Shown here one piece after another: positions 1 through 15,021 of a DNA stretch of 39,334 bases. Positions within the stretch are counted from its first letter, which is position 1, and every line of letters begins with the position of its first letter. The position numbers and the translations under genes were made by a program. The DNA lies in assembly GCA_025358925.1 (NCBI GenBank), contig JANYHT010000005.1, forward strand, positions 1-39,334, written 5' to 3'. The DNA is from Gemmatimonadaceae bacterium. GTDB lineage: Bacteria; Gemmatimonadota; Gemmatimonadetes; Gemmatimonadales; Gemmatimonadaceae. A model generated the notes under the pieces. That model was not told where the DNA came from, did not search any database, and saw only the letters and a list, made by a program, of their open reading frames with translations.

Positions 1-141
1 GACACGCCGGAGCTCAGTGCCGCCATTGATGCGCTGGCGCGTGCGTGTGATCGCCGTGATACGACGAGCGTGAAAAGCAGCCGTACGGTGATCGAAGAAC
101 GGGCGCCCGGACATCCGGCATTGGTGGCTCCGTGCTACTAA
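1..141 (+). CDS. 3' end of an unidentified protein (partial)
   Basis: Frame 1 is open from the first base to a TAA at 139-141 and gives the last 46 residues of a protein that begins outside the window. The fragment is hydrophilic, starts DTPELSAAIDALARACDRRD and ends VAPCY. No domain is recognisable in so short a piece. The stop codon overlaps the stop codon of the convergent minus-strand gene (TAG read from 140 to 138), so the two genes share their last four bases and there is no room for a terminator between them. The frame is certain to be open, but that it is coding is inferred from the codon pattern and the neat tail-to-tail fit. Confidence 0.6.
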   Translation, partial: DTPELSAAIDALARACDRRDTTSVKSSRTVIEERAPGHPALVAPCY

Positions 142-1334
142 AACCGCCGCTCAAGCATTAACCGCCCACCCAGCACAGTAAAACTGCTCTTCCCAATGCC
201 TGTATCAACGCCACCGATACGTGCGGTCAGCATCGGCTGCAGTGTCCAATCGGCGCCATTGATAGCAAGGCCAACTATCGGCGCCACAGACGTTGACGCG
301 GCCGTCGCTAACCGATTGTCGATCGCAACCGCCGTGAGCACGCGACCACTCACTTCAAACACTGCGTCCACGCGACTCGTGAGCGGCTTTGCGGCACGCG
401 CGCCAGCTTCGAACATCACGTTACCACTATTTGCTAACTCGGTCCCGTCGCGCTTAAGTGCCGAACGCAATCGCAGTGCTCCAAACAGTGCCGCATTCTT
501 CAATTTTGTTGTGGCCGGCATGAACTGCGCGTCCAATGCAACCGTAGGTCCAATCTGAATTTTGACCGGAGCGGTATTCGTGCCGCGGGACACTTTATCT
601 GCGCCAAATAAATCGAGACTCGCGGTAATCAGGCCCTTACTTTCACCGAACAGTCTCGTTGCACCAGCACTGAGGCGTACCACTTCGCCCGGATCATACG
701 AGTTGACCGCAGCGCCGACGGCCAATGCGGCAAATGGATCGTATTGTCCGCGCCACTCGACACTCGTGCCCAGCGCTACGCCCCACTGTTTTGAGGCAGA
801 GGCAAAACTCTTGACAACGCCGAGCGTCGCACCAGCCCCGAAGCCAACCGCTGGTTGCGTCATGTTAATGGCCGGTGATCCCAGCACTGAGAGCGCAGCA
901 GTTTGCGAGCGATCAAGTTTCGTGACGCCCGTGGGAATGTTCGCGCCAAGGGTAATGCGCAGGCCCATACCGTCAAACCGGCGCGATGCGCGGACACGTA
1001 TATCACCGATGCCGCTCAGGGCATCGTCCGACGCGGACGTGCCCGCGACCTTCCGCGTACCGCTGGTGAAGCTCGCGCCTGCATCCAGCAACCACACGCC
1101 GGCGAGTACGGTGCTGTATTGAAGCGGCACCGCGAGATTGGTCGCGGAGAGCACGCGTGTCGAGTCAACACCGGCAAGATCGGACTCCAGCACGCCACCG
1201 GTAAACGTTGTGCGTTCGACAATGATGCCGGTCGTAATTTTTGATGTCGACTTTTGCGCTGTCACAGCGATCGGGCTGAGCACGAAGACGCTCGCGACAA
1301 TACCCTGCGACCAAGGAGAAATCATGCGGCGCAT
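138..1334 (-). CDS. Putative outer-membrane beta-barrel protein
   Basis: A 398-residue protein with an N-terminal signal peptide (basic MRRM, hydrophobic stretch, cleavage likely after AVTAQ). The rest is built of short alternating polar/apolar segments rich in Gly, Ala, Thr and Arg, as in transmembrane beta strands, and the last residue is Phe (LERRF), the usual C-terminal signal for insertion by the BAM complex. I infer an outer-membrane barrel; no specific family or substrate is recognised. The chosen ATG (1332-1334) overlaps the TGA of the upstream CsgG-like gene in a TGATG junction, which implies translational coupling; a second ATG lies three codons further in (1325). The frame is open upstream to 1400 but that part would lie inside the previous gene. 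The pairing suggests that barrel and lipoprotein act together in the envelope. Confidence 0.7.
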   Translation of the reverse strand: MRRMISPWSQGIVASVFVLSPIAVTAQKSTSKITTGIIVERTTFTGGVLESDLAGVDSTRVLSATNLAVPLQYSTVLAGVWLLDAGASFTSGTRKVAGTSASDDALSGIGDIRVRASRRFDGMGLRITLGANIPTGVTKLDRSQTAALSVLGSPAINMTQPAVGFGAGATLGVVKSFASASKQWGVALGTSVEWRGQYDPFAALAVGAAVNSYDPGEVVRLSAGATRLFGESKGLITASLDLFGADKVSRGTNTAPVKIQIGPTVALDAQFMPATTKLKNAALFGALRLRSALKRDGTELANSGNVMFEAGARAAKPLTSRVDAVFEVSGRVLTAVAIDNRLATAASTSVAPIVGLAINGADWTLQPMLTARIGGVDTGIGKSSFTVLGGRLMLERRF

Positions 1335-2266
1335 CACGGTGTAATCCGCACGATCACTGTGCCCGCGGCCGGTGACAGCGCCGGGCACGTGGGCGGGCAC
1401 AACGCTGGTGGTGCTGCGGAGCGCACCACGCGATCTGTGACGCTGAGCAGCAATTCGTCAAGCAACAGATCAAACGGACGTCGCGTTGTTGCAAGCGCAG
1501 CGATAGACGCAGGAGGCAATACGGGCGACGCGCCAATCAATGCCGGTGCTTCTGTCGGCGAGAGTGCGTCAACGGCCTCCTTAAAATTTGGATCAAGCTT
1601 TACGGCTTGCGCATAGAACTGTCGTGCTTGCGTCATGTTGCCCATCGCCTCGGCACGACGACCATTGCCGAACGCAATCAACGCGTCCACTCGGCGCGTG
1701 GGTCGCTTGGCGAGTCGCTCGCGTTCAGCAGGCGAAAGTGCGATGCCAAGTTTTTCGAACGTTTGCTGCGCCAGGCGCTCCTGCCCATCAATCAGCGCAT
1801 TGAGCGCGATGCGTTCAGAAAAAACCAATTCTGTCGTACCCAATTGCACATTCAGCACCGAAACGTCAACTGACGCACCATTTGGCGTGCGACTCACAAC
1901 ACCGCTGAGTACGCGTTCGGCGCCCACCAACTGTCCCGCACGCGGTACTGATTGCGGCGCGACACGACCGCTCGCGGCAAGTCCAAGTTCCTTGAGCACC
2001 GCGTCAAGACGAGCTCGTTCTACAACTCGCAGTCGTGGGACCAACGCGAGATCGCGCGTGAGCATTTCGGAAAGGGCGAAGCCAAGCCCTTCCATGCCCA
2101 CACCACCCGTGAGCGGTAGCACGGCGACGGTGCGCGACGACGGCATCACAGGTCCAACTGGTTTTGCCGGTACGCTCGACGTCGCGCACGACATGAGTAC
2201 CCCGCCAGCAACAGTGAACATGAAGAGAACAGCACAGCGACGGTACGGCTGCAGCGCAAAACTCAT
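1334..2266 (-). CDS. CsgG/FlgO-like envelope lipoprotein with TPR-like tail
   Basis: A 310-residue predicted lipoprotein. The signal peptide ends in a lipobox-like LMSC (Cys about residue 30). The next 120 residues follow the CsgG/FlgO-type fold: a strand TVAVLPL, a helix with ALSEMLTRDLA, then RLRVVERARLDAVLKELGL and a segment on the level of 'GAERVLSGVVSR'. This pattern is typical of proteins that find the last-named 'enzyme-like' ER...L motif in FlgO/CsgG relatives. A helical stretch near residues 210-245 (ARQFYAQAVKLDPNFKEA) resembles one TPR. CsgG itself forms an export pore, but most short homologues have no known role. The ATG at 2266 was chosen because the signal peptide starts there; the frame extends to 2314. 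A promoter candidate sits at 2333-2362, and the barrel gene follows with a 1-nt overlap. A second CsgG-like gene lies at 6990. Confidence 0.72.
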   Translation of the reverse strand: MSFALQPYRRCAVLFMFTVAGGVLMSCATSSVPAKPVGPVMPSSRTVAVLPLTGGVGMEGLGFALSEMLTRDLALVPRLRVVERARLDAVLKELGLAASGRVAPQSVPRAGQLVGAERVLSGVVSRTPNGASVDVSVLNVQLGTTELVFSERIALNALIDGQERLAQQTFEKLGIALSPAERERLAKRPTRRVDALIAFGNGRRAEAMGNMTQARQFYAQAVKLDPNFKEAVDALSPTEAPALIGASPVLPPASIAALATTRRPFDLLLDELLLSVTDRVVRSAAPPALCPPTCPALSPAAGTVIVRITP

Positions 2267-2301
2267 CGGGTGACCAGAGTGCGGTACTTGCCAAGTGAAA
2301 C

Positions 2302-2383
2302 GGCCTCGCGGCACAATGCGTGTCGACGGCCTATTCTATCTGACGCGTCGGCCTCGCGGCAAGAGGATCGATACGCTATTCTA
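2302..2383. repeat. Two-copy direct repeat in a divergent promoter region
   Basis: GGCCTCGCGGCA occurs at 2302-2313 and 2350-2361, and CTATTCTA follows each copy at 2331-2338 and 2376-2383. The two boxes are 17 nt apart in the first copy and 14 nt in the second. The repeat lies between the divergent CsgG-like lipoprotein and Ig-like protein genes, so it may be a duplicated operator or promoter. Confidence 0.6.
2333..2362 (-). promoter_or_regulatory. Candidate sigma70-type promoter for the CsgG-like/barrel unit
   Basis: On the minus strand TTGCCG (2362-2357) and TAGAAT (2338-2333) are spaced by 18 nt, fairly close to the TTGACA/TATAAT consensus. Transcription would start near 2326, about 60 nt before the start codon at 2266. 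The -35 element lies inside one copy of a direct repeat and the -10 inside the other. Assigned by eye only. Confidence 0.35.
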
Positions 2384-2439
2384 GCGCAGATAGCTTTCCC
2401 TTCGTCTTTCTCGACGTGCCAACCTCGACGCGTAGCGCA

Positions 2440-5247
2440 ATGCCCATGGTTAGCCGACTTCGTGCGCGATGGTTCGCGCTTGCGCTGCTCGCGATGCAGC
2501 CCATCGCGTGCGCAGAAAAAACTCTCGTGACCGCGCTGGGTACTGGCGACGCGCGACTTGGGATTGCTGTCTCGCTCGGTACGCTCGCTGCCGATGGCGA
2601 TATCACGGCGGTTCGTGTAACTGCGCGATACACTGTGTCGGGTGCCGTCGTGCTGCTGAAAGACGTCACGGTTCCGTACGCGCAGGGGCAGACGCGCGAC
2701 GTCGCACTCTCGCTCGACATCACGCAATGCTTGCGAGACGTCAGCACCGTCGCGATTACGGCAACGAATTGTCCGGTACAAGTGACAGTGGACGTGCTCG
2801 CGGGCACACGAGTGTTGGCACGTGATGTGTTGCCCGTCGTGCAGGTACGCGCGGGTGAGTCGGCGTCGACGCCGGCGCTCGCGGCGCGCGGTGCGACATC
2901 GGTCCGTCTTGTCTATAACGGCGCCACCGCGCCGACCTCGCTCTCGTTCGTAGTTGGATCAACTGCGTCGCTGTCGGCCGAACCCCTCGATGCGGCAAGC
3001 GTGTCGATTGCGGGTCGCACGCTTGTGTGGACAACGTCGGCGCCGACGGTTGCCAGCGTCAGTGCGACTGGTGTGATCACTGGCGTTTCGGTTGGTACCG
3101 CGACGGTCACCGCAACAACGGGTACTGGCGCGGCATTGGTGCAAAACAGCATCACTATAAACGTCACGGCTCCCATTCCGGCGTCCGTGGAAGTCGCTCC
3201 GGCAACGACTACCATCGCGGTTGGCGCAACACAATTGCTCACGATAATTGTGAAGGATGCTGCGGGTATCGCCATCACACCCACACCCGCGCTGACATTT
3301 GCAAGTACGCAACCCATCGTAGCGACGGTGTCCGCGACGGGAACGGTCACGGCAATCGCGGCAGGATCAACAATCATTACCGCGCGCACCGCGAATGGCG
3401 TGACGGGTACAGCAACGATAGGCGTGTTCGCGGTACCTGCGAGTGTGCGGTTCACACCTACGTCAGCGAGTCTTGACGTTGGAGCAACACAAACGTTTGC
3501 GCCAACCGTAAGCGACGCCGCAGGTGTCGCGATCACACCAACGCCAACGCTGCAGTGGAGTTCATCCTCGAGTATTGTGGCCACCGTGACACAGTCGGGA
3601 GTTGTTACGGCCGTCGCGTCCGGCAGCGCAACAATCACGGCCACAACGTCAAATGGTATCGTCGGCACAGCAACGGTGGTCGTCGCCGCCGTGCCGACTA
3701 GCGTTACACTCGCTCCGCTCGCGACAACACTGAATGTCGGAGCGACACAAACGCTTACGCCAACGGTACGCGACGCAGCAGCCGTCATCATCACGCCAAC
3801 GCCCGCGCTGACGTGGACAACCTCTGCGGCAACTGTCGCAACGGTATCGCAAGCGGGTGTTGTAACGGCCGTTGCACCGGGCACAGCGACCATCACGGCA
3901 CAAACCAGTAACGGTATTCGCGGAACGGCAACGTTCAGCGTGCAAGGTGTACCTGCGACACTCACCATAACGCCGCTGTCCGCATCACTCGGCGTCGGCG
4001 CGACACAAGCGTTGACGCCACTCGTACGTGATGCCGCCGGTGTCGATATCACCTCGAGCTCGCCCGTTACATGGTCGAGCGCCAACACCAGCGTGGCGAG
4101 CGTGTCATCCACCGGTCTGGTTACGGGCATCGCCAGTGGAGTAACCACGATTACTGCACGCACCGCAAATAACGTCACCGCAAGCGCGTCAATCACCGTC
4201 GGCACCGCAGGTACGTACTCTGGGCGAGTCTTCGATTTTGAAACGAACACCGGCATTGTTGGCGCCACGATCACGCTGAACAGCGGCGGCCAAGTCCAGC
4301 GCGTAGTAACGACAGACAACGCCGGCAACTACACCTCAGGTAGCATTGTTGGTGGTCCGTTCGACATTCGAGTCATCGCCAACGGCTATACGTCAGCAAG
4401 CATTGTCGGTGCCGCCAGCAACGGCGCCCAAACACTGGAAGCGATTCCATTGGTCAAAACAGCAGTCGGCGGCGGCACAATTTCCGGCACGGTGCTCAAT
4501 GCGACCACCAACCAACAAATCGTGACCACCGGTACGTTGGATTTATACGCTGGCGTGAATACAACGACGGGTATCATTCTCGCCACGACTACCACCGCAA
4601 CGTCCGGCTTCTATCAATTCTCAACGGTGAATGCTGGCACCTATACCGTTGCCGCGCGCGCCACGGGATTCAGCAATGGCAGTCGCACCGTAGTCTCACT
4701 CGGTGCCGGTCGCGTGGCGTCATCGCAGAACGTGTTGCTCTCGCCGACGTCCAGCACGGGATCATTGCGCATTGTGTTGACGTGGGGCGCACTGCCGCCA
4801 GACTTGGATTCACACCTCACTGGTCCGAGTATAAATGGGACCAGCTTTTGGGTCTACTATGCGTCACGCGGTTCGTGTACCACGTTCCCGTACGCGTGCC
4901 TCGACGTTGACGCGGTGAACGGACGTGGTCCAGAAACAATTTCCATCGCGCAACGCACCACCGGACGTTACGTGTACTCAGTACATAATTACTCGGCGGG
5001 CAATAGTACGTCTGACGTTGGACTGTCCAGCTCCGGCGCGCGTGTCGATGTGTATGGTGCGACGGGGTTACTGCAAAGCTTCGCAGTACCTTCACTGCCA
5101 GGCACGCTGTGGACGGTGTTTGATTGGGACGGCGTGACCATTCGTGCCATCAACACCATCAACGGCCTCGCACCACCTGCGTCCAGCGCACCACCGGGTG
5201 CGATCCGCGCGGAACCGGCCGTGTTGCCACCCAAGATTAAGCCGTAG
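2440..5247 (+). CDS. Large surface protein: five Ig-like (BIG2) repeats, two CarboxypepD_reg-like domains, YfaP/DUF2135-like C-terminus
   Basis: A 935-residue exported protein, with a hydrophobic signal segment ending in PIAC (a poor lipobox, so lipidation is possible only). About residues 30-150 form a unique domain. From about 158 come five bacterial Ig-like domains with the BIG2 signature (VATVSATGTVTAI.AG.ATITA); the last four are encoded by units of exactly 258 bp beginning at 3181, 3439, 3697 and 3955. Around 592-770 are two domains like the carboxypeptidase regulatory fold (YSGRVFDFETNTGIVGATI; GTISGTVLNATTNQQI). The last about 150 residues resemble YfaP/DUF2135 (IVLTWGALPPDLDSHL, then VYSVHNYS). 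Such proteins are usually cell-surface adhesins or scaffold proteins. The ATG at 2440 gives a compact signal peptide; a GTG at 2416 and an ATG at 2446 are alternatives. Ends 14 bp from the convergent kinase gene. Confidence 0.82.
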   Translation: MPMVSRLRARWFALALLAMQPIACAEKTLVTALGTGDARLGIAVSLGTLAADGDITAVRVTARYTVSGAVVLLKDVTVPYAQGQTRDVALSLDITQCLRDVSTVAITATNCPVQVTVDVLAGTRVLARDVLPVVQVRAGESASTPALAARGATSVRLVYNGATAPTSLSFVVGSTASLSAEPLDAASVSIAGRTLVWTTSAPTVASVSATGVITGVSVGTATVTATTGTGAALVQNSITINVTAPIPASVEVAPATTTIAVGATQLLTIIVKDAAGIAITPTPALTFASTQPIVATVSATGTVTAIAAGSTIITARTANGVTGTATIGVFAVPASVRFTPTSASLDVGATQTFAPTVSDAAGVAITPTPTLQWSSSSSIVATVTQSGVVTAVASGSATITATTSNGIVGTATVVVAAVPTSVTLAPLATTLNVGATQTLTPTVRDAAAVIITPTPALTWTTSAATVATVSQAGVVTAVAPGTATITAQTSNGIRGTATFSVQGVPATLTITPLSASLGVGATQALTPLVRDAAGVDITSSSPVTWSSANTSVASVSSTGLVTGIASGVTTITARTANNVTASASITVGTAGTYSGRVFDFETNTGIVGATITLNSGGQVQRVVTTDNAGNYTSGSIVGGPFDIRVIANGYTSASIVGAASNGAQTLEAIPLVKTAVGGGTISGTVLNATTNQQIVTTGTLDLYAGVNTTTGIILATTTTATSGFYQFSTVNAGTYTVAARATGFSNGSRTVVSLGAGRVASSQNVLLSPTSSTGSLRIVLTWGALPPDLDSHLTGPSINGTSFWVYYASRGSCTTFPYACLDVDAVNGRGPETISIAQRTTGRYVYSVHNYSAGNSTSDVGLSSSGARVDVYGATGLLQSFAVPSLPGTLWTVFDWDGVTIRAINTINGLAPPASSAPPGAIRAEPAVLPPKIKP
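3181..4212 (+). repeat. Four tandem 258-bp coding repeats (Ig-like domains)
   Basis: Corresponding codons recur at 3181, 3439, 3697 and 3955, a spacing of exactly 258 bp (86 residues) with no indels. The copies are diverged at DNA level but keep the order PASVxxxP, VGATQ, D(A)AGVxIT, VATVS, ITA. A fifth, more diverged copy precedes them (about 2911-3180). Confidence 0.85.
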
Positions 5248-5261
5248 CGCGCCACGTATGG

Positions 5262-6881
5262 CTAGCAGCCGTAGAGCGACGTATTTCGTGTAACGGAGTT
5301 GCGATCCGCAACCGACGTTGCGACACCGCGTGCACGACTGAGCGTGCTACACGCGCCCGCTCGATCACCGGCGAGCTTCAGCAAGTTGGCCTTCAACAAA
5401 TACGCGCGCGCACTATCGGACGGCGTCTGTGCGCTTGGTAGCAGCACGTTAATGCGCGCGATTAAGTCATTCGCATGCGCAGGGTCATCATGACCCTCGT
5501 CCGCTAAGAGCAACGCATCGAGTGAGTCGCGCACGACGTCGAGTCGCGCGCTCAGGTCACTCAGATTTTTTACGGGACGCGTTGACGCGATTGTTGTATC
5601 AACGTTGGGCCGAAGAACAACGGGTGAAGGTGATGTGCTCACGGTCGATTGAGTGCGCGTAACTGCGGCGACCGAGTCAAGCACTGGCGCGGCTGGTGCC
5701 GCCGCACGCATTGTGCTATCGCCAACGCGCAGTGGCACGACACCGCTGGCGATCGGCGCCTGCAATGGTCCGCGATCCTTGCGCATCACCACCAGTACTA
5801 ACGCAGCAGCAACAAGCACAAGCACTCCAATGGTTGGCGCGATCCAGCGTGGCCGACGGATCGCGTTTCCTTCACCGGAAGCAACAGGTGTTGGCAGCAC
5901 GCGCACACCACCACTCGGCATTGGACGCGTGTTGCCGTCCATCGCATCCCGCAACGCTTCGGAAAATGCCGCCGCCGATGGATAGCGGCCACTTGGTTCA
6001 CGCGCCAACACGCGATCAAACACCGCCTGCAAGCCCACGGGCCACGCACGCGAAGGCGCTACTTCGTCAAGCCGCAACGGTGCGTCCATCAACACGGCGC
6101 TAAATCCGCGCTCTGGCGTTGGTGCCGCAAACGGTAACGTGTTGGTCAGAGCACGAAACGCCAACAAGCCCAACGCAAAAACATCAGAGCGACAATCAAT
6201 CGTCGACCCAAGAAACTGCTCCGGACTCATATACTGCGGCGTGCCCGTGACAAATCCTGGCGTCGTGAGCGTATCATCGTTATCGGGACCGATGGCCTTC
6301 GCGATGCCAAAGTCCACAATTTTTGCGCACTCTCGGCCGTCGGCAGTTGTCATCAGGAGCACGTTGTCGGGCTTGAGATCGCGATGCACAATATCCAATC
6401 GATGTGCGGCGCCTAGTCCGTCTGCAAGTTGCGTTATCAGCGATACCACGCGCACCGACGGCAGGGCGCCCTCTTGATCGAGCACCCACGACAGCGTCGG
6501 TCCGGGGATGTACTCCATGGCAAGGTACGTCCCGCCACCAGCTAACCGTCCAAAATCGAAGACCCGCGCCACATGCGGATTCTCAATGCGGCTTGTGCTA
6601 CTGGCCTCGCGCGTAAACCGCGCGACCGCGGCCGGATCATTGGTGAGTCGAGCGTGGAGGACTTTGACGGCGACTTTTCGGGGAAGGTGGACGTGGTGTC
6701 CCAAGTACACGCGTCCCATGCCACCTTCACCCAGAAGCGCCGTGATCACGTAGCGCTCATCGATCACGCTGTCGATCAGACTATCGCCCGCACTCCCACC
6801 TTGCAGCGCCGAACCGTCGGCCGCGCAAAAGATGTGTTCGTCTTCGTAGATCCGGTCGCACAGCGGGCAAGTTTTGGACAT
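5262..6881 (-). CDS. Membrane-anchored Ser/Thr protein kinase with N-terminal zinc ribbon
   Basis: A 539-residue eukaryotic-like (Hanks-type) kinase. Residues 5-19 (CPLC...FC, then DG) form a small zinc-ribbon-like motif. The kinase domain runs about 44-315: glycine loop GEGGMG (51-56), ATP-binding Lys73, catalytic HRDLKPDN (His166, Asp168), DFG (Asp190), and the activation-segment end GTPQYMSPEQ. All catalytic residues are present, so it should be active. A single membrane segment lies at about 347-366, followed by a 170-residue extracytoplasmic part ending in a helical region (AYLLKANLLKLAGDRAGAC) that has no sensory domain I recognise. It would phosphorylate cytoplasmic or envelope-associated proteins in response to a signal outside. 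The start at 6881 places the zinc ribbon at the N-terminus. Divergent from the CsgG-like gene at 6990. Confidence 0.93.
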   Translation of the reverse strand: MSKTCPLCDRIYEDEHIFCAADGSALQGGSAGDSLIDSVIDERYVITALLGEGGMGRVYLGHHVHLPRKVAVKVLHARLTNDPAAVARFTREASSTSRIENPHVARVFDFGRLAGGGTYLAMEYIPGPTLSWVLDQEGALPSVRVVSLITQLADGLGAAHRLDIVHRDLKPDNVLLMTTADGRECAKIVDFGIAKAIGPDNDDTLTTPGFVTGTPQYMSPEQFLGSTIDCRSDVFALGLLAFRALTNTLPFAAPTPERGFSAVLMDAPLRLDEVAPSRAWPVGLQAVFDRVLAREPSGRYPSAAAFSEALRDAMDGNTRPMPSGGVRVLPTPVASGEGNAIRRPRWIAPTIGVLVLVAAALVLVVMRKDRGPLQAPIASGVVPLRVGDSTMRAAAPAAPVLDSVAAVTRTQSTVSTSPSPVVLRPNVDTTIASTRPVKNLSDLSARLDVVRDSLDALLLADEGHDDPAHANDLIARINVLLPSAQTPSDSARAYLLKANLLKLAGDRAGACSTLSRARGVATSVADRNSVTRNTSLYGC

Positions 6882-6989
6882 CGGCAGGGGTCACGGTGAA
6901 CGAAATCAAACGGCAGACGCAGCGCGAGCATGACAGGTCATCTTGACGCTGAATTGGCGATGCACCAACGTCAATGAGCATGCAGACGC

Positions 6990-7769
6990 ATGTTACCCCT
7001 CTTTTCCGAGGTTCTGGTGTCCCGCACCACATCTGCCCATGCAGTGCCGCTAACCCGCGTGAACCGAATCCTCACCGTCGTCGGGCTGTCGCTGACCGTT
7101 GCGATACAGACGGCGAGCGCTCAGGCGCGCATCATGGATACGCGTCCTACCGTTGCCGTATTCTACTTCGACAACGGATCGCTTGTTGACAACGCCAAGT
7201 TCGAACCGCTGCGTAAAGGGTTGGCGATGATGCTTGGCTACGAATTGGCGCGAAATCCAGGCATTCGGGTGGTGGAGCGCGACAAACTACAGGAACTCTT
7301 GGCCGAACAGAACTTGCAAAATTCAGATCGGGTCGATCCCGCGACGGCCGTGCGTTTGGGCAAATTGCTCGGCGCTCGGCATTTCATTGACGGAACCTTC
7401 ATCATTGACGCGAGCAAGAAGCTGCGCATTGACGTGCGCGCGGTGAATACGGAGACTGGGCAGTGGGATTATGTCGAGACCATTCGCGGCAAGTCCGATC
7501 ATTTGCTCGACATTGTCGGAGAGCTCGGCGCAAAAATAAATAAGGGGATGAAGTTGCCGGAGATTCCCATTGTGAAGGGCGCGGTTGTGCCAGCGACGCG
7601 TGGGCCCAATCAGGAACGCATTTCGCAATTAGTCAGTCGTGCAGAGGAGGAGATGGACCGCGGGAATACGAAGTACGCCGCGACGTTATACCGGAACGTG
7701 TTGGAGTTGAACAAAAACTATGATTTGGCGCAGACGCGGTTGGCTAGCATAGAACGTTTGGCGAAATAG
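6990..7769 (+). CDS. CsgG/FlgO-like periplasmic protein
   Basis: A 259-residue exported protein. After a hydrophobic signal segment ending ASAQA, the core has the CsgG-type order: strand TVAVFYFDNGS, helix PLRKGLAMMLGYELA, then IRVVERDKLQELLAEQNLQ and the signature ARLGKLLGARHFIDGTFI-like segment (VRLGKLLGARHFIDGTF), followed by strands for RIDVRAVNTETGQWDYVET. The C-terminal 60 residues look like a TPR-like pair of helices (ISQLVSRAEEEMDRGNTKYA). It is the second CsgG-like protein in 7 kb and shares this domain order with the lipoprotein at 1334-2266, but lacks a lipobox. The start is uncertain: ATG at 6990 gives a long N-terminus, GTG at 7059 a compact signal peptide (VNRILTVVGLSLTVAIQ). 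It lies divergent from the kinase and just upstream of the BTAD protein (61 bp). Confidence 0.75.
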   Translation: MLPLFSEVLVSRTTSAHAVPLTRVNRILTVVGLSLTVAIQTASAQARIMDTRPTVAVFYFDNGSLVDNAKFEPLRKGLAMMLGYELARNPGIRVVERDKLQELLAEQNLQNSDRVDPATAVRLGKLLGARHFIDGTFIIDASKKLRIDVRAVNTETGQWDYVETIRGKSDHLLDIVGELGAKINKGMKLPEIPIVKGAVVPATRGPNQERISQLVSRAEEEMDRGNTKYAATLYRNVLELNKNYDLAQTRLASIERLAK

Positions 7770-7830
7770 GTTGCAGTCGGCGATACCCTGTTGACGCCGC
7801 ATTGACGCGCACGCGCTATGTGTTCGCGCG

Positions 7831-10800
7831 ATGAAACTGATGCCAACGACGCGCGGTGCGCCAAGTACCGATTCCGTGCTGCCCGCATTTCTGCTGCGCA
7901 CCCTTGGCGCGGCTGAGCTCTGTGAAATTGCGCCTGGTGGCGCGGTACTTCCGCGCGTGTTGGGTCCGGGCAAGCCGCTTGCGCTACTCGTGTATTGTGC
8001 GTGCGCGCGCGACCGAGCGCACGCCCGTGACATGCTTGCGGCGTTACTCTGGGCCGACTCCGACCCCGAAAAGTCTCGACATAATGTACGCCAAGCGCTT
8101 TGGCGACTTCGTCGCGTACTTGGCGATGTGTTGGTCACGCGCGATGACGCGGTTGAAGGCATTCACCCCGCGCTCGAATCGGATCGAGAACGATTCCTGC
8201 GCGCCGTACATGGCGATGATGCGGAGTTAGCGCTCTTATTGTACTCGGGTCCATTTTTGCGCGGCCTGACCTTACCGGGTGGCGATGAATTTGAAGACTG
8301 GGCGATTGCGGAGCGGCGGCGGTTAGAAGACTCGCTCCTTCGCGTGGTGCAGCCGTATGCGCGTGAGCTCGTGAAGCGCGATCGACCGGGACGCGTGTGT
8401 GAAGTTGCGGAACGATTGATCGTACTCGCGCCTGACTCACTCGACGCGCATCGCATTGCCACCGATTTGTTGGTGGCGGCCGGCGACCGTTCGGCGGCAC
8501 GTCGTGTCGCGGATCGACTTGAGCAATTGGCTGTTGAAACGATCGGCCACACGCCGACTGATGCGGCTGCGGCCATTGCACGGGCGCGTACCACGGCGAC
8601 CGTTGAGCCAGTCGAAATCGTGCGCGCGATTGCGCTGGATCTGGTTGGCCGCGATGCAGAATTTGGTGCTGTACTCGAGGCGTGGAGTCGCGCTCGTGTT
8701 GGCACGACGCAGGTGGTCGCGATGACCGGTATTGCTGGCATCGGGAAGAGTCGATTGCTCGCCGCTATTGCTACACGATGCAGCGGCCGACGCGCTCGTT
8801 CGGTGAGTGTGCGCGCCAATCCCGGAGAGCTCGAGGTGCCGTTTGGATTCGCGGCAGGCATTGCTCGTGCGCTCTCGACGCAACCGGGTGCAGCGGGCAT
8901 TAATGTTGACAGCGCGCGTGAAATTGTCGCGCTCGACCCTGGGCTTGGCAGTGTGTTTGCAACGACGCCGTCCGCGACCGATGGCGGTGAAGCAGTGCGA
9001 CGACGCGCGCTCGCCCTGTTGGATCTCGTGAGCGCCATCGCTGAACAGGAACCATTGGCGTTGTTACTCGACGATTTGCATTGGGCCGATGCATCATCAC
9101 GACAACTGCTCGCGGTTGTCCTTGGACGTGCGACGGAATTACCGCTAATGGTTGTGGTGACTACGCGAGCGACGAGTGCGGTGATTGTCGAGCATCGGGC
9201 CCTCACGACGGTGTCACTGCTCGCGCTAGACGGCGATGCGGTGATTGACGCCATTCGAAGTTCTGGTAGCTGGCCCGAGCACGCAGAGGCGCAGCTCTTT
9301 GTGCGTCGGCTCGCGAGCGTGTGTGATGGAATTCCGCTCAGTGTGGTAGAGCGACTCGCCTTGGCTCGTGATACTGGCAACCTCGTTGATCACGACGGCA
9401 TGTGGGACTCTCCAGACTGGCAGCAGGCCACGCGTGATATCGGGGTCGCGTCGCCGCTTGATCAGCGTTTGCTCGCCTGCACGCCGATTGAATCGCGCAC
9501 GTTGCTCACGTTGTCCGTCGCGGGTACTCCACTCGCGGACGCGGTCATTCGCGACGCATTGCCCAAGGAGAGTGCGTCGACCGTGGCGGACGCACTCCAA
9601 GCACTTGAAGTAAAAGGGCTGCTCGTACGCACGCGCGACGGGTGGTCGATGTGGCATGATGTCGTCAGTGAGCGCACGCTTGCACTCACTGCACCTGAAG
9701 ACCGTCAAGCGCGGCACGGTGCGTTGGCGACTGCGCTCATGTTGTCTGGCTCGTCGCTCTCTCATGCAGCGGCCGTTCGTCATTTCGTGCAGGCGATGGA
9801 CGATGACGCGGCTGGCGTGGTGTTCGCGAAGATTGTTGCGGCGGGGCGTCGGAGTGGCGATGCGCGACATGCACGCGATGTCCTCACCGACTGTGTTGGC
9901 GAGCGTCTGTCCGAGGTGCGGCTGCGTCGTGTGCTCCGTGCTGTGCCATTCTGGAATCGTAGTGCCCGTTTACGCACGCGCTCAGTCTTGGTTGCGGCAT
10001 CACTCGTGGTGCTCGCCACCAGTGTGTCTGCATGGTATGCGCGTCGGCAGCCCGCATTAGCGTTTGCGCAAGCGCCCGTGGTTGCGGAGGCCGCACGCAG
10101 TTTCCGATCAGACGCATTTCGATTGCTGCCGTCTGCAATCGTGCGCTTCGGATCGAGCGAACGTGTGTTACCAGCAGCAGCGGGATCGTCGATGGTACAC
10201 GTGCGCTCGCTCCGAGCGACTGCGACAATTTTATCCGGTGACTCTGTCGTTGCGGACAGCGGTGTCGCGAGTTTTGGCGCGTTGCGTTTTGCGACGACCG
10301 ACTCGGTGCTCATTCTACGCTTTGAAGCAGAGGGATTTCGCCCGCTCGACTTCGAACTCAAGATGCGGGATAATCACCTGCCGAATGGACCAGGACGCTC
10401 GTCGACGAGGCTCTATGATGGCATGCTCAATGGTCAACATGTGCGCGGACCAAACGCACAAATCGTTGTAGCGCGTGACGCAACGGTGTCGGGCGTGGTG
10501 CAGGTGGAATACAACTCGTCGTGGCCAGCGGCGTCGGTGTGGCTGTCCCTCACGCCTACGTGGGGACGTGCGTCCGAAGTGGGCCGCGAGATCATCCCCG
10601 TCTCAACTCCGGTGCGGCAAGATGTCGTGGACGTACCAGTCGATGTCGTTGCACCACACGCACCTGGACAATATTGGATTTTGTTTATGGTCGACGCCGA
10701 GCCGTCTGGTGGGTTTGGTCTTTCGCGCACGAATTGGACGCTCGGTGCTGCGGAGTGGGGTGACGGGAACGATCTTGCGGCGCTTCCGGATAGCGTGATT

Positions 10801-10968
10801 CGCGTGGCCAATCGCGATGGCATCGTGCTCACGGACATTTTGTATCCAGCGTTGTGGAACACGGGCGGATATGTGTGTCGTGATAGTGCAGGCGTCGTGC
10901 ATGGCAAGCGCGTCAAGTACTGTCCGCGTCAACTGGGCATGTTCGGTATCCGAGTGATCGTCAATTGA
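7831..10968 (+). CDS. BTAD-AAA ATPase regulator fused to a membrane-anchored C-terminal region
   Basis: A 1045-residue protein. Residues 20-105 look like the winged-helix OmpR/SARP-type domain (HARDMLAALLWADSDPEKSR, VRQALWRLRRVLGDVL), and 110-250 like the bacterial transcriptional activation domain (BTAD), a TPR-like fold. A STAND/AAA-type ATPase follows with Walker A GIAGIGKS (300-307) and Walker B LLLDDLHWAD (411-420). The usual C-terminal LuxR or TPR part is absent. Instead there is one hydrophobic segment at about 717-737, then 300 residues without a recognised domain that would sit outside the cytoplasm. DNA binding was not shown; I infer a membrane-bound sensor/regulator. An ATG is used, without a strong ribosome-binding site. 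It is in line with the CsgG-like gene 61 bp upstream and probably co-transcribed with it. Confidence 0.83.
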   Translation: MKLMPTTRGAPSTDSVLPAFLLRTLGAAELCEIAPGGAVLPRVLGPGKPLALLVYCACARDRAHARDMLAALLWADSDPEKSRHNVRQALWRLRRVLGDVLVTRDDAVEGIHPALESDRERFLRAVHGDDAELALLLYSGPFLRGLTLPGGDEFEDWAIAERRRLEDSLLRVVQPYARELVKRDRPGRVCEVAERLIVLAPDSLDAHRIATDLLVAAGDRSAARRVADRLEQLAVETIGHTPTDAAAAIARARTTATVEPVEIVRAIALDLVGRDAEFGAVLEAWSRARVGTTQVVAMTGIAGIGKSRLLAAIATRCSGRRARSVSVRANPGELEVPFGFAAGIARALSTQPGAAGINVDSAREIVALDPGLGSVFATTPSATDGGEAVRRRALALLDLVSAIAEQEPLALLLDDLHWADASSRQLLAVVLGRATELPLMVVVTTRATSAVIVEHRALTTVSLLALDGDAVIDAIRSSGSWPEHAEAQLFVRRLASVCDGIPLSVVERLALARDTGNLVDHDGMWDSPDWQQATRDIGVASPLDQRLLACTPIESRTLLTLSVAGTPLADAVIRDALPKESASTVADALQALEVKGLLVRTRDGWSMWHDVVSERTLALTAPEDRQARHGALATALMLSGSSLSHAAAVRHFVQAMDDDAAGVVFAKIVAAGRRSGDARHARDVLTDCVGERLSEVRLRRVLRAVPFWNRSARLRTRSVLVAASLVVLATSVSAWYARRQPALAFAQAPVVAEAARSFRSDAFRLLPSAIVRFGSSERVLPAAAGSSMVHVRSLRATATILSGDSVVADSGVASFGALRFATTDSVLILRFEAEGFRPLDFELKMRDNHLPNGPGRSSTRLYDGMLNGQHVRGPNAQIVVARDATVSGVVQVEYNSSWPAASVWLSLTPTWGRASEVGREIIPVSTPVRQDVVDVPVDVVAPHAPGQYWILFMVDAEPSGGFGLSRTNWTLGAAEWGDGNDLAALPDSVIRVANRDGIVLTDILYPALWNTGGYVCRDSAGVVHGKRVKYCPRQLGMFGIRVIVN

Positions 10969-11074
10969 GTGTCAACAGTGTGATGTAGTCGTTGTGTGCA
11001 CGGCGATCGCACGATCGGGACTTGGCGACTGTGCGGCCATTGACGGTGGATCGACGGATGACAGATAGCGTATC

Positions 11075-11105
11075 GAGGTGCGTCATCCGAACCTCACCGC
11101 ACCTC
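11075..11105 (+). promoter_or_regulatory. Perfect 8-bp hairpin in the leader of the PEP-CTERM gene
   Basis: GAGGTGCG (11075-11082) and CGCACCTC (11098-11105) can form a stem with a 15-nt loop, 23 nt before the start at 11129. It may end the upstream transcript or control translation. No U-tract follows, so a simple intrinsic terminator is not well supported. Confidence 0.4.
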
Positions 11106-11128
11106 ACTCCAACGATCAGGATTACTTC

Positions 11129-12220
11129 ATGTCGTTCATGCAACGCAGAAATTGGGGGACCACACGTCTCTTCGGAATCGTGCTACTCGCCTCAGTGTGC
11201 CTGACCACGACAAATGCGCACGCGCAGGCACCGACGCTTTGGAATTGGCAGCTCGTCAGTCAGGGCTCACCGCTGCAACCGTACGATCCGCGCGCCGCGC
11301 TCACTTCGATCTACGCAAAGACAACGACCGATGTGTATCTCGCCGGTTGTTATCGCTGTCTTGAACGGTGGGATGGCACAACGTTCTCCGCACAGGCGCA
11401 GCCAGCCGGCAACAATCGCTATACCGTGTCTGGCGCGCCAGATGGCAGCGTCTACTCGGCCGGTCAGTCCAACTTGCTGCGCTTCGACGGTTCGAGTTGG
11501 ACAAGTGTGCTTCAAGCACAGAGCGAACTGTTCTCAACGTATGTCGCACCTGATGGCACCGTCTTCACGTCCGGCGATGGTGTGGTCTATCGCAATGCGG
11601 GCGCCGGATATGTCCGCCTTACCACCGGACTAAGCACAGCGTTTAACACCGATCGCCTCCTCGCAATGACCGGATTTAGCGCCAACGATGTATTCATTGG
11701 CGGCTACGGCGGCAAAATTCTACGTTTTAACGGCACAACATTTTCGTTGATGAATACCGGAACAACGGAGCCCATTGACGCGATAGATGCGAGGAGTCCA
11801 ACGCAGGTCTACGCCGTTGGACAGCACGGCACCGTTTTGCATTTCAACGGCGTTGCGTGGATCACACTTCCCCCACCCGCGCTCGGCAATCTGCGTGGTG
11901 TGCAAGTGCTCGGTGACAACGACGTCATCGTCTCGGGTGACGGCGGCGTGTTGGCGCGATGGAACGGACTCGCGTGGTCGTACATCAATCTTGGCACGAC
12001 ACTCACGCTCGGCAACATCAGTACGCCGGACAATGGGCAAACACTGTTTATTGTCGCGATCACCAACAGCGATGTGCAGTTTTACGAAGGGCGCAACGCG
12101 AGTCCGTTGTCGTCGACGGTGCCGGAACCGGGTTCGCTCGCGTTGGTTGGGGTTGGGATTGCGGGGCTGGTGTTTGGAATGCGAAAGCGCAGTGCGTTTT
12201 CATTGACTCGCGGCAGATAA
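11129..12220 (+). CDS. PEP-CTERM protein with beta-propeller-like repeats
   Basis: A 363-residue secreted protein. The signal peptide (RRNWGTTRLF, then hydrophobic core, cleavage near NAHAQA) follows from the ATG at 11129; the frame itself is open from 11078. The body contains at least five repeats with the pattern [R/H][W/F][D/N]G..[W/F], e.g. RWDGTTF, RFDGSSW, RFNGTTF, HFNGVAW, RWNGLAW, spaced about 40-60 residues, which fits the blades of a beta propeller. The C-terminus has VPEPGS, a hydrophobic segment and a basic end (MRKR), the PEP-CTERM sorting signal recognised by exosortase, so it is probably delivered to the cell surface. No exosortase gene lies in the window. Function of the propeller unknown. 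Convergent with another PEP-CTERM gene at 12322. Confidence 0.85.
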   Translation: MSFMQRRNWGTTRLFGIVLLASVCLTTTNAHAQAPTLWNWQLVSQGSPLQPYDPRAALTSIYAKTTTDVYLAGCYRCLERWDGTTFSAQAQPAGNNRYTVSGAPDGSVYSAGQSNLLRFDGSSWTSVLQAQSELFSTYVAPDGTVFTSGDGVVYRNAGAGYVRLTTGLSTAFNTDRLLAMTGFSANDVFIGGYGGKILRFNGTTFSLMNTGTTEPIDAIDARSPTQVYAVGQHGTVLHFNGVAWITLPPPALGNLRGVQVLGDNDVIVSGDGGVLARWNGLAWSYINLGTTLTLGNISTPDNGQTLFIVAITNSDVQFYEGRNASPLSSTVPEPGSLALVGVGIAGLVFGMRKRSAFSLTRGR

Positions 12221-13919: not shown

Positions 13920-14897
13920 TTAGGACAGCGCGGCCCAGGCTTGACTGAGCACCTTCTCCGCGAGTCGTAGTCGCTCCACCGTTGCGTCAAGGTCTAATCG
14001 GCCATCGCAAAGCATCCGATAGTCTCCGTTGAATTGAGCTACTGTCATGGTCGCACCTCTGATCGTCGTCTTACACACATCGAGCTCGTTGTGCCCTCCG
14101 ATTTTGATAAGCTTCTGCTGCAACTGATGTGCAAGATCCGGGCTTTGATCGTTGCTCTTCGTAAGTTTGAAACACAGCTTGCCCTCTTCGAGCTGAAGGT
14201 AGGGCACACCCTCAGAGTTCGCGATTCCCCACCAAAATCCTTGGAAGCCACCACGCGGGTTGCTCACCGGGCCCCAATCGCCGCCGATCGTTTTTCGCTG
14301 TAGTTCGGAATAAAACCCCTGCCATGTACGTGCTTTTTCCCAATCGGGGAAAGGTAATTTCCAAGAATTGAAATCGTCTTCAAGCTGTAGCAGCCAATTG
14401 CGGAAATCACGCGCAATGGAGTCGGTGAGAACGTCGGGACTCGACTCTTTAAATAGTCGTAAAAAATCGGCGCGAGTAAACCGAAAGTAGCCCGCCTCCT
14501 CCACAGCTTTATAGCTCGACTGCTCGTGGGTCTGCACATAAACCAACAGGCATTTTTCTACTGGTACCCCTTCCGACGAAATCGCGTTAGGGTAGCGCAC
14601 GAGCTGATCATTGTGCTCGGTGCTTCCGACTTTGTCCTCAATGCAAATCGTCCACTCATCGTTGATTCGAACGACCAGATCGATGTTCTTGTGCTGACGT
14701 TTAATAGTGAGTGAATTAATCACCGGCATTACCTTCTTGTTTAGCCTAAAGAATTCGTGCAATATGGACGCTCCAAGTGCGTGGAGCCCGGCACTAAATT
14801 GCGCATTTTTGGGATCGGCCCACGCGATAAGCCAAGCAAGCACAGCATCCTGCGACAGCTCCTTCGTCGCGTAGTGGAAAAGATTCGGGCGAGTCAT
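13920..14897 (-). CDS. PD-(D/E)XK nuclease superfamily protein
   Basis: A 325-residue protein beginning MTRPNLFHYATKELSQDAVL, which matches the N-terminus of the PDDEXK_4 type (NLF.YATKELSQDA..CWL.EWAD). The nuclease core is visible at Asp73 (NIDLVV), Glu87 and Lys89 (CIEDKV), with a downstream Gln98 (DQLVRY), so the D...ExK catalytic set is complete and a Mg-dependent nuclease activity is expected. Target unknown; relatives are often encoded alone or near defence genes. The ATG at 14897 is chosen because homologous sequence starts there; the frame extends to 14963. No methylase or other restriction partner is adjacent. A small frame follows 11 bp downstream; upstream lies a Clp N-domain protein. 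Confidence 0.85.
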   Translation of the reverse strand: MTRPNLFHYATKELSQDAVLAWLIAWADPKNAQFSAGLHALGASILHEFFRLNKKVMPVINSLTIKRQHKNIDLVVRINDEWTICIEDKVGSTEHNDQLVRYPNAISSEGVPVEKCLLVYVQTHEQSSYKAVEEAGYFRFTRADFLRLFKESSPDVLTDSIARDFRNWLLQLEDDFNSWKLPFPDWEKARTWQGFYSELQRKTIGGDWGPVSNPRGGFQGFWWGIANSEGVPYLQLEEGKLCFKLTKSNDQSPDLAHQLQQKLIKIGGHNELDVCKTTIRGATMTVAQFNGDYRMLCDGRLDLDATVERLRLAEKVLSQAWAALS

Positions 14898-15021
14898 TTC
14901 AAATCGTGGGCTTAGGGTTGATGTGTGGAACGCTTGCGGTCCATTAACGGTCAGCCAAAACATTGGGCCGTGAGACTGTCAGCGAATCGGAAGATTGTCA
15001 AGAGAATGTAGCGTCGCCAAG

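Follow-up and report, generated by a model that had tools for sequence, protein, structure and literature searches.

A conserved five-gene envelope module of Gemmatimonadota and its link to type VI secretion in relatives

Five neighbouring genes in the window, the whole stretch of 39,334 nucleotides analysed here, make up a real and recurrently conserved envelope module of Gemmatimonadota. They encode a predicted outer-membrane β-barrel, two proteins with CsgG-type domains (CsgG1 and CsgG2), an Ig-repeat lipoprotein and a Ser/Thr kinase. In many relatives, the module is linked to the type VI secretion system (T6SS), and this link is real. The window is the entire contig C9 of its own 4.0 Mb draft genome, which is 96% complete.

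Results

Organization of the locus

The six ORFs that the original prediction joined into one envelope block are all present at their positions; the starts are probably later for three of them (barrel, CsgG1 and repeat protein), judged by alignment of relatives. The features are:

1–138, + strand: C-terminal part of a third CsgG2-like gene, truncated by the contig end, with the remainder on contig C25
138–1334, − strand: outer-membrane β-barrel (predicted), 398 aa, ~16 strands, signal-peptide-like start
1334–2266, − strand: CsgG1, probable lipoprotein with a TolB-N/CsgG-type domain and TPR (Pfam CsgG, AlphaFold2 (AF2), fold search)
2440–5247, + strand: Ig-repeat lipoprotein (putative), 935 aa, with a module-specific N-domain, five Big_2 and two CarboxypepD_reg domains
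5262–6881, − strand: Ser/Thr kinase with a Cys-rich N-terminus, kinase domain, one transmembrane segment (TM) and a helical C-terminal part
6882–6989, no strand: short intergenic region between the divergent kinase and CsgG2 genes, an arrangement that is conserved
6990–7769, + strand: CsgG2, predicted periplasmic protein of CsgG/TolB-N type with a TPR-like C-terminal part (Pfam CsgG, 1.7e-13)
7831–10968, + strand: BTAD-AAA_16 protein with one TM, a neighbour outside the conserved module

The CsgG1 stop and the barrel start overlap by one base (TGATG), so the earlier description of a CsgG-like lipoprotein coupled to the barrel is correct. The rest of the third CsgG2-like gene is found where contig C25 ends (L099:8383-8967), and because the gene is split between both contig ends, C25 and C9 are probably adjacent in the genome. 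In the relative G018 this gene is intact (L031:2962-3654), and within L031:2962-6266 extra genes, including another Ser/Thr kinase, separate it from the barrel; these are absent in the window genome. Elsewhere in the window, at 13920-14963, a PDDEXK_4 nuclease-like gene with no evident partner lies near PEP-CTERM genes.

Conservation and rearrangement of the module

In relatives, five of the six genes co-occur instead of lying scattered; the BTAD-ATPase does not travel with them. A paralogous locus on contig C43 of the same genome carries, in this order, CsgG1, the barrel, a repeat lipoprotein, CsgG2 on the opposite strand and the kinase; this layout, the canonical one, is seen again in other members of the genus. 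Among the same-genus barrel loci other than that of the window, all five genes are found in 11 of 17, at about 25–50% identity, a count that leaves out L031 and L021, which are cut by contig ends. In the other six, the lipoprotein lies some genes away (L044), CsgG1 alone is lacking at a contig start (L075), or two or three parts are present (four loci).

The succession of CsgG1 and barrel and the divergent kinase/CsgG2 pair are retained in the window copy, with the blocks re-ordered. In the trees, the window and G018 copies group on a long branch, apart from the canonical copies. The window block is a diverged, rearranged second copy of the module. The placement of the kinase between two CsgG-like genes, on which the sensory interpretation was built, is true in the window, but since gene order and orientation vary among relatives, it is a local rearrangement; the conserved features are the mutual divergence of kinase and CsgG2 and the succession of CsgG1 and barrel. 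Decay of the window copy is ruled out by dN/dS values of 0.04-0.10 against G018 for the barrel (0.09), CsgG1 (0.09), CsgG2 (0.04) and BTAD genes. These four are under purifying selection; the Ig protein and kinase of the window copy were not found in the G018 assembly.

These genomes are rich in kinases and Ig-repeat proteins, as would suit a chance gathering of common envelope genes. Such a gathering is highly improbable, however, given that the genes recur at low identity with changed order and that nine control genes are almost entirely missing from the 32 barrel loci: BTAD, PEP2, PDDEXK and five more distant window genes occur in none, PEP1 in two. Chance neighbourhood is refuted for the five genes and stands for the BTAD-ATPase.

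Across 61 relatives, 34 barrel profile matches occur in 30 genomes, and CsgG1 adjoins the barrel in 33 of the 34, the last lying at a contig start (compared by eye). At phylum level, the barrel is found in 100 of 249 genomes, with 128 matches. From these, 40 loci were hand-picked (the best outside the genus plus a spread over longer contigs), none of which was used in the profiles; profile E-values are circular for loci that supplied alignment rows. CsgG1 adjoins the barrel in 39 of the 40, the remaining one being cut by a contig end. A lipoprotein N-domain match above 25 domain bits is present in 14, a count that excludes weak calls below 12 bits (L181, L184, L186 and three ORFs of L168). CsgG2 is matched in 12, the kinase in 13 and both in nine, and the CsgG1-barrel pair stands alone, with no lipoprotein match, in 19. 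The five genes also recur together, differently ordered and oriented, in further genera and in some genomes that share no more than the class. These counts (39, 14 and nine) give a layered composition, with the CsgG1-barrel pair as the core, the lipoprotein as the next layer and the CsgG2-kinase arm as the outer layer. In several pair-only loci, the barrel is followed by a gene that we take to be YebC-like.

A full-text literature search returned nothing combining Gemmatimonas with CsgG, and nothing combining ‘TolB N-terminal’, TPR and kinase; subscription papers are mostly outside its coverage, which makes this weak evidence of novelty.

The barrel protein

No Pfam family matches the barrel above cut-off. 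AF2 folds it (mean pLDDT 83.7) into an outer-membrane barrel with ~16 long strands, counted from the listed elements, which bears out the barrel-like character first proposed. The protein consists of the barrel alone, with no fused TPR scaffold in the model. The closest solved structures are CdiB (Z 19.4), OprB (18.1), PelB (17.8), CymA (17.7) and PgaA (17.5); ordinary porins lie within 2–3 Z of the best matches, and the fold search cannot discriminate among 16-strand barrels. The named relatives of the protein are Gemmatimonadaceae, several of them labelled Gemmatimonas. When the contigs were scanned with a narrowed alignment of the barrel, the strict patterns that such a scan requires limited the yield to 11 loci.

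CsgG1 and CsgG2

Both CsgG-like proteins exceed the Pfam CsgG cut-off of 20.8 bits (CsgG1 27.9, CsgG2 50.8), with partial coverage: profile positions 36-99 and 7-97, respectively, of 210. The CsgG1 TPR match in the same scan is below cut-off. The AF2 model of CsgG1 (pLDDT 68.8) is confident for residues 43-236, and the last 72 residues are unmodelled (pLDDT <50). The modelled CsgG1 combines a fold of TolB-N/CadC/LpoB/PelC type with TPR, and its matches descend from TolB (Z 14.1) through FlgT (11.8), CadC (10.8), LpoB (10.7) and PelC (10.2) to CsgG (8.2). Like TolB and CadC, its best and one of its best fold matches, it has this periplasmic domain; unlike them, it lacks the TolB propeller and the DNA-binding domain and is free-standing with TPR.

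The pore of CsgG is built by two transmembrane hairpins. Against true CsgG, 115 residues of CsgG1 align across a 203-residue range, and close to 90 CsgG residues, presumably the pore hairpins, have no counterpart. In the CsgG1 model, no pore hairpins are seen, only short loops between the strands at 118-153; for CsgG2, the alignment and the end of the Pfam match near position 97 likewise indicate that none are present. The CsgG-like label therefore holds at the level of the Pfam match and misleads as to function. A curli-type secretion channel is rejected: about half of the CsgG domain is shared, but the pore hairpins are absent and the TolB, CadC and LpoB folds are closer.

CsgG2 is 98% identical to its G018 counterpart and 44–49% identical to those of canonical loci, and no lipid site is seen in it. 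In a PDB sequence search, most hits of the CsgG1 and CsgG2 profiles were TPR proteins. Other families of CsgG2-like proteins occupy a separate locus with MlaE, MlaD, PrmC and release-factor genes, and CsgG2 is thus not exclusive to the module. In one such locus (L061), the CsgG2-like gene stands beside MlaE/MlaD, PrmC, peptide release factor and S41 peptidase genes.

Comparison with PelBC and Slam

In the PelBC complex, a ring of twelve PelC lipoproteins surrounds the 16-strand PelB barrel (PMC12141448). The module resembles PelBC (9h80) in pairing a lipoprotein of the same broad fold with a 16-strand barrel encoded by an adjacent gene. It differs in that PelB itself carries TPRs, whereas here the barrel stands alone and the TPRs are on the lipoprotein; the pair here has a linked repeat lipoprotein and kinase, and the Pel synthesis genes are not seen. 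A PelBC-like exporter of polysaccharide or another polymer would account for the 16-strand barrel and the PelC-type fold, but no polysaccharide synthase occurs among the Pfam-scanned neighbours, which cover part of the genes, and this explanation is improbable. As for a PelC-type ring lipoprotein, the CsgG1 model scores lower against PelC than against TolB (Z 10.2 vs 14.1).

Slam genes often adjoin lipoprotein genes (PMC5449769), an analogy for regarding the repeat lipoprotein as a client. Both systems comprise a barrel plus TPR with a lipoprotein gene adjacent, the lipoprotein here being a putative substrate; in contrast to Slam, TPR and barrel are on separate proteins, and the barrel has ~16 strands rather than 14. 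Slam membership is rejected: no DUF560-type barrel Pfam match is found in 20 barrel members at E 0.1.

The repeat lipoprotein

Five Big_2 and two carboxypeptidase-regulatory-like (CarboxypepD_reg) domains are found by Pfam in the repeat protein, in agreement with its predicted repeat-rich nature. The proposed YfaP-like end is not borne out: neither the protein nor the rest of the genome gives a match to DUF2135 (PF09906), with the threshold relaxed as far as E 10. In the aligned relatives, the N-terminal 150 residues contain three invariant Cys residues, one of them at the lipid site; the lipid-site motif of the window protein, PIAC, is atypical. A module-specific domain spans about residues 25–160, and 18 of 18 matches to it in the 61 genomes, among the matches listed, are in barrel loci. 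Behind this domain, relatives carry InlB-like repeats, the window protein carries Big_2 and regulatory-like domains, and L045 carries a PEP1-like part. The lipoprotein combines a module-specific N-terminal domain with interchangeable passengers. In L156 (G173:C40), four N-domain lipoproteins surround one CsgG1-barrel pair.

The kinase and the BTAD-ATPase

The kinase matches PF00069 at 8.7e-37 with conserved catalytic residues. It has a Cys-rich, zinc-ribbon-like N-terminal stretch and a single hydrophobic segment (347-365), followed by a 174-aa, helical part, in line with the kinase with an outside domain originally described.

For the BTAD-ATPase, AAA_16 is matched at 2.9e-22 and BTAD just at cut-off. 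The proposed single membrane crossing finds a candidate in segment 716-734, which is weakly hydrophobic; a second segment, at 426-444, lies inside the ATPase domain. Near-full-length matches with at least 44% identity occur in about ten of the 61 genomes, sometimes in tandem. Beyond the close relative G018, the orthologs have other neighbours, and together with its absence from the 32 barrel loci this leads to its rejection as a module member; it is a separate unit that landed beside CsgG2 in the window/G018 lineage. At window 7831-12220, the BTAD-ATPase is followed by a PEP-CTERM protein, and the same two are adjacent in G029 (L094), where the neighbour is a relative of PEP1; this suggests that they form a small unit of their own.

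Link to type VI secretion

The T6SS link did not figure in the original prediction. In the canonical locus, tssM lies beyond the kinase. TssM is found beside the kinase in seven same-genus loci and also in L150, L153, L181 and L184, of which L181 and L184 share no more than the class. In the genus, kinase and tssM are convergent and hence not one transcript; in L181 and L184 they are on the same strand. In G020 (a single contig of 4,636,964 bases, which we take to be Gemmatimonas aurantiaca T-27), a full T6SS cluster extends beyond tssM, with TssK, TssL, TssB, TssC, Hcp, ImpE, TssA, TssF, TssG and VgrG, some of these subunits being named from Pfam titles. Near this cluster (L101:9951-15634) are a LanM-type lanthionine synthetase (DUF4135 + LANC) and a C39-peptidase ABC exporter. 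Among the full texts searched on Gemmatimonas aurantiaca and type VI secretion, none appears to be about it, subscription papers lying mostly outside coverage.

Across the 30 genomes of the genus, the module is present in all nine TssF-positive genomes, and five of the 14 module-positive genomes, including that of the window, lack TssF. Here G011 (kinase on another contig than the barrel, no full CsgG2) and G002 (nothing beyond CsgG1, the barrel and a weak match to the lipoprotein) are counted as negative, and G022 (split over two contigs) and G007 (CsgG1 cut off) as positive. At phylum level, the barrel occurs in 27 of 30 TssF-positive vs 73 of 219 TssF-negative genomes (Fisher p 2.3e-9, which assumes independence and ignores phylogeny). 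In 14 of the 27, tssF and the barrel share a contig, 6.5-56 kb apart; in the other 13 they are on different contigs, and in one of these 13 genomes the contig with tssF has no more than a small piece of the barrel. The linkage figures, like the p value, take no account of phylogeny and treat genomes as independent.

In other bacteria, T6SS is under the control of the PpkA kinase and of FHA proteins (PMC3953482). As in that threonine phosphorylation pathway, a membrane Ser/Thr kinase lies beside tssM in relatives, and an FHA-trypsin fusion gene lies beside the module kinase in the deep relatives L181 and L183; unlike PpkA, the kinase here has a Cys-rich N-terminus and a helical C-terminus. No TssF is found in the window's own genome, though both module copies are present, so both stand alone. 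As the module outlives the T6SS there, T6SS cannot be its only role.

Discussion

The original idea of a sensory system controlling an outer-membrane assembly remains plausible and gains weight, with the BTAD-ATPase excluded from it. The best reading, though still a tentative one, is a lipoprotein-barrel assembly that displays the repeat lipoprotein and is joined by a CsgG2-kinase sensing arm. CsgG1, as a lipidated outer-membrane protein with a TolB-N/PelC-type domain and TPRs, would dock to the 16-strand barrel from the periplasm, and the two would together make up an outer-membrane translocon or assembly. The client of this pair would be the adjoining repeat lipoprotein, in which the N-domain beside the lipid anchor may act in docking or sorting and the variable segments (Ig, InlB-like or propeller-like) may be exported as surface-displayed passengers. 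Periplasmic CsgG2 and the single-pass kinase would constitute the sensing arm, reporting the assembly state to the cytoplasm through phosphorylation.

Co-conservation, the low dN/dS values of barrel, CsgG1 and CsgG2, the confinement of the N-domain to barrel loci among the matches listed, the four lipoproteins of L156, the passenger swap of L045 and the match of PelBC (9h80) to both models (barrel Z 17.8, CsgG1 Z 9.4) count in favour of surface display. The non-discriminating barrel fold, the greater closeness of CsgG1 to TolB than to PelC, its unmodelled last 72 residues and the atypical PIAC motif count against it. The 19 pair-only phylum loci, several with the YebC-like gene, imply that the client may be something else.

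The T6SS linkage of relatives suggests another role for the kinase arm. The module may be a T6SS accessory, in which a PpkA-type kinase senses envelope contact via CsgG2/CsgG1, the barrel and lipoproteins serve as outer-membrane anchor, gate or contact sensor, and the window and C43 copies are stand-alone, repurposed descendants. The position of tssM, the co-occurrence with TssF and the neighbouring FHA-trypsin gene argue for this role. Module copies in TssF-lacking genomes, the convergent kinase and tssM of the genus and a barrel pair much commoner than T6SS argue against it, and it is possible but rather unlikely.

A further proposal, unlikely as it stands, is an undescribed outer-membrane addition to T6SS: the TolB/PelC-type lipoprotein and 16-strand barrel would form a gate or contact sensor with swappable surface lipoproteins, read by the kinase beside tssM, and stand-alone descendants such as the window locus would, once the secretion system was lost, work as surface-display machines coupled to a kinase.

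In conclusion, an envelope module is now defined for a little-studied phylum, its proposed client is open to testing, and the kinase and outer-membrane barrel are possible unrecognised partners of the Gemmatimonadota T6SS. As G020 carries the whole arrangement, gene removals could be attempted in a cultured species.
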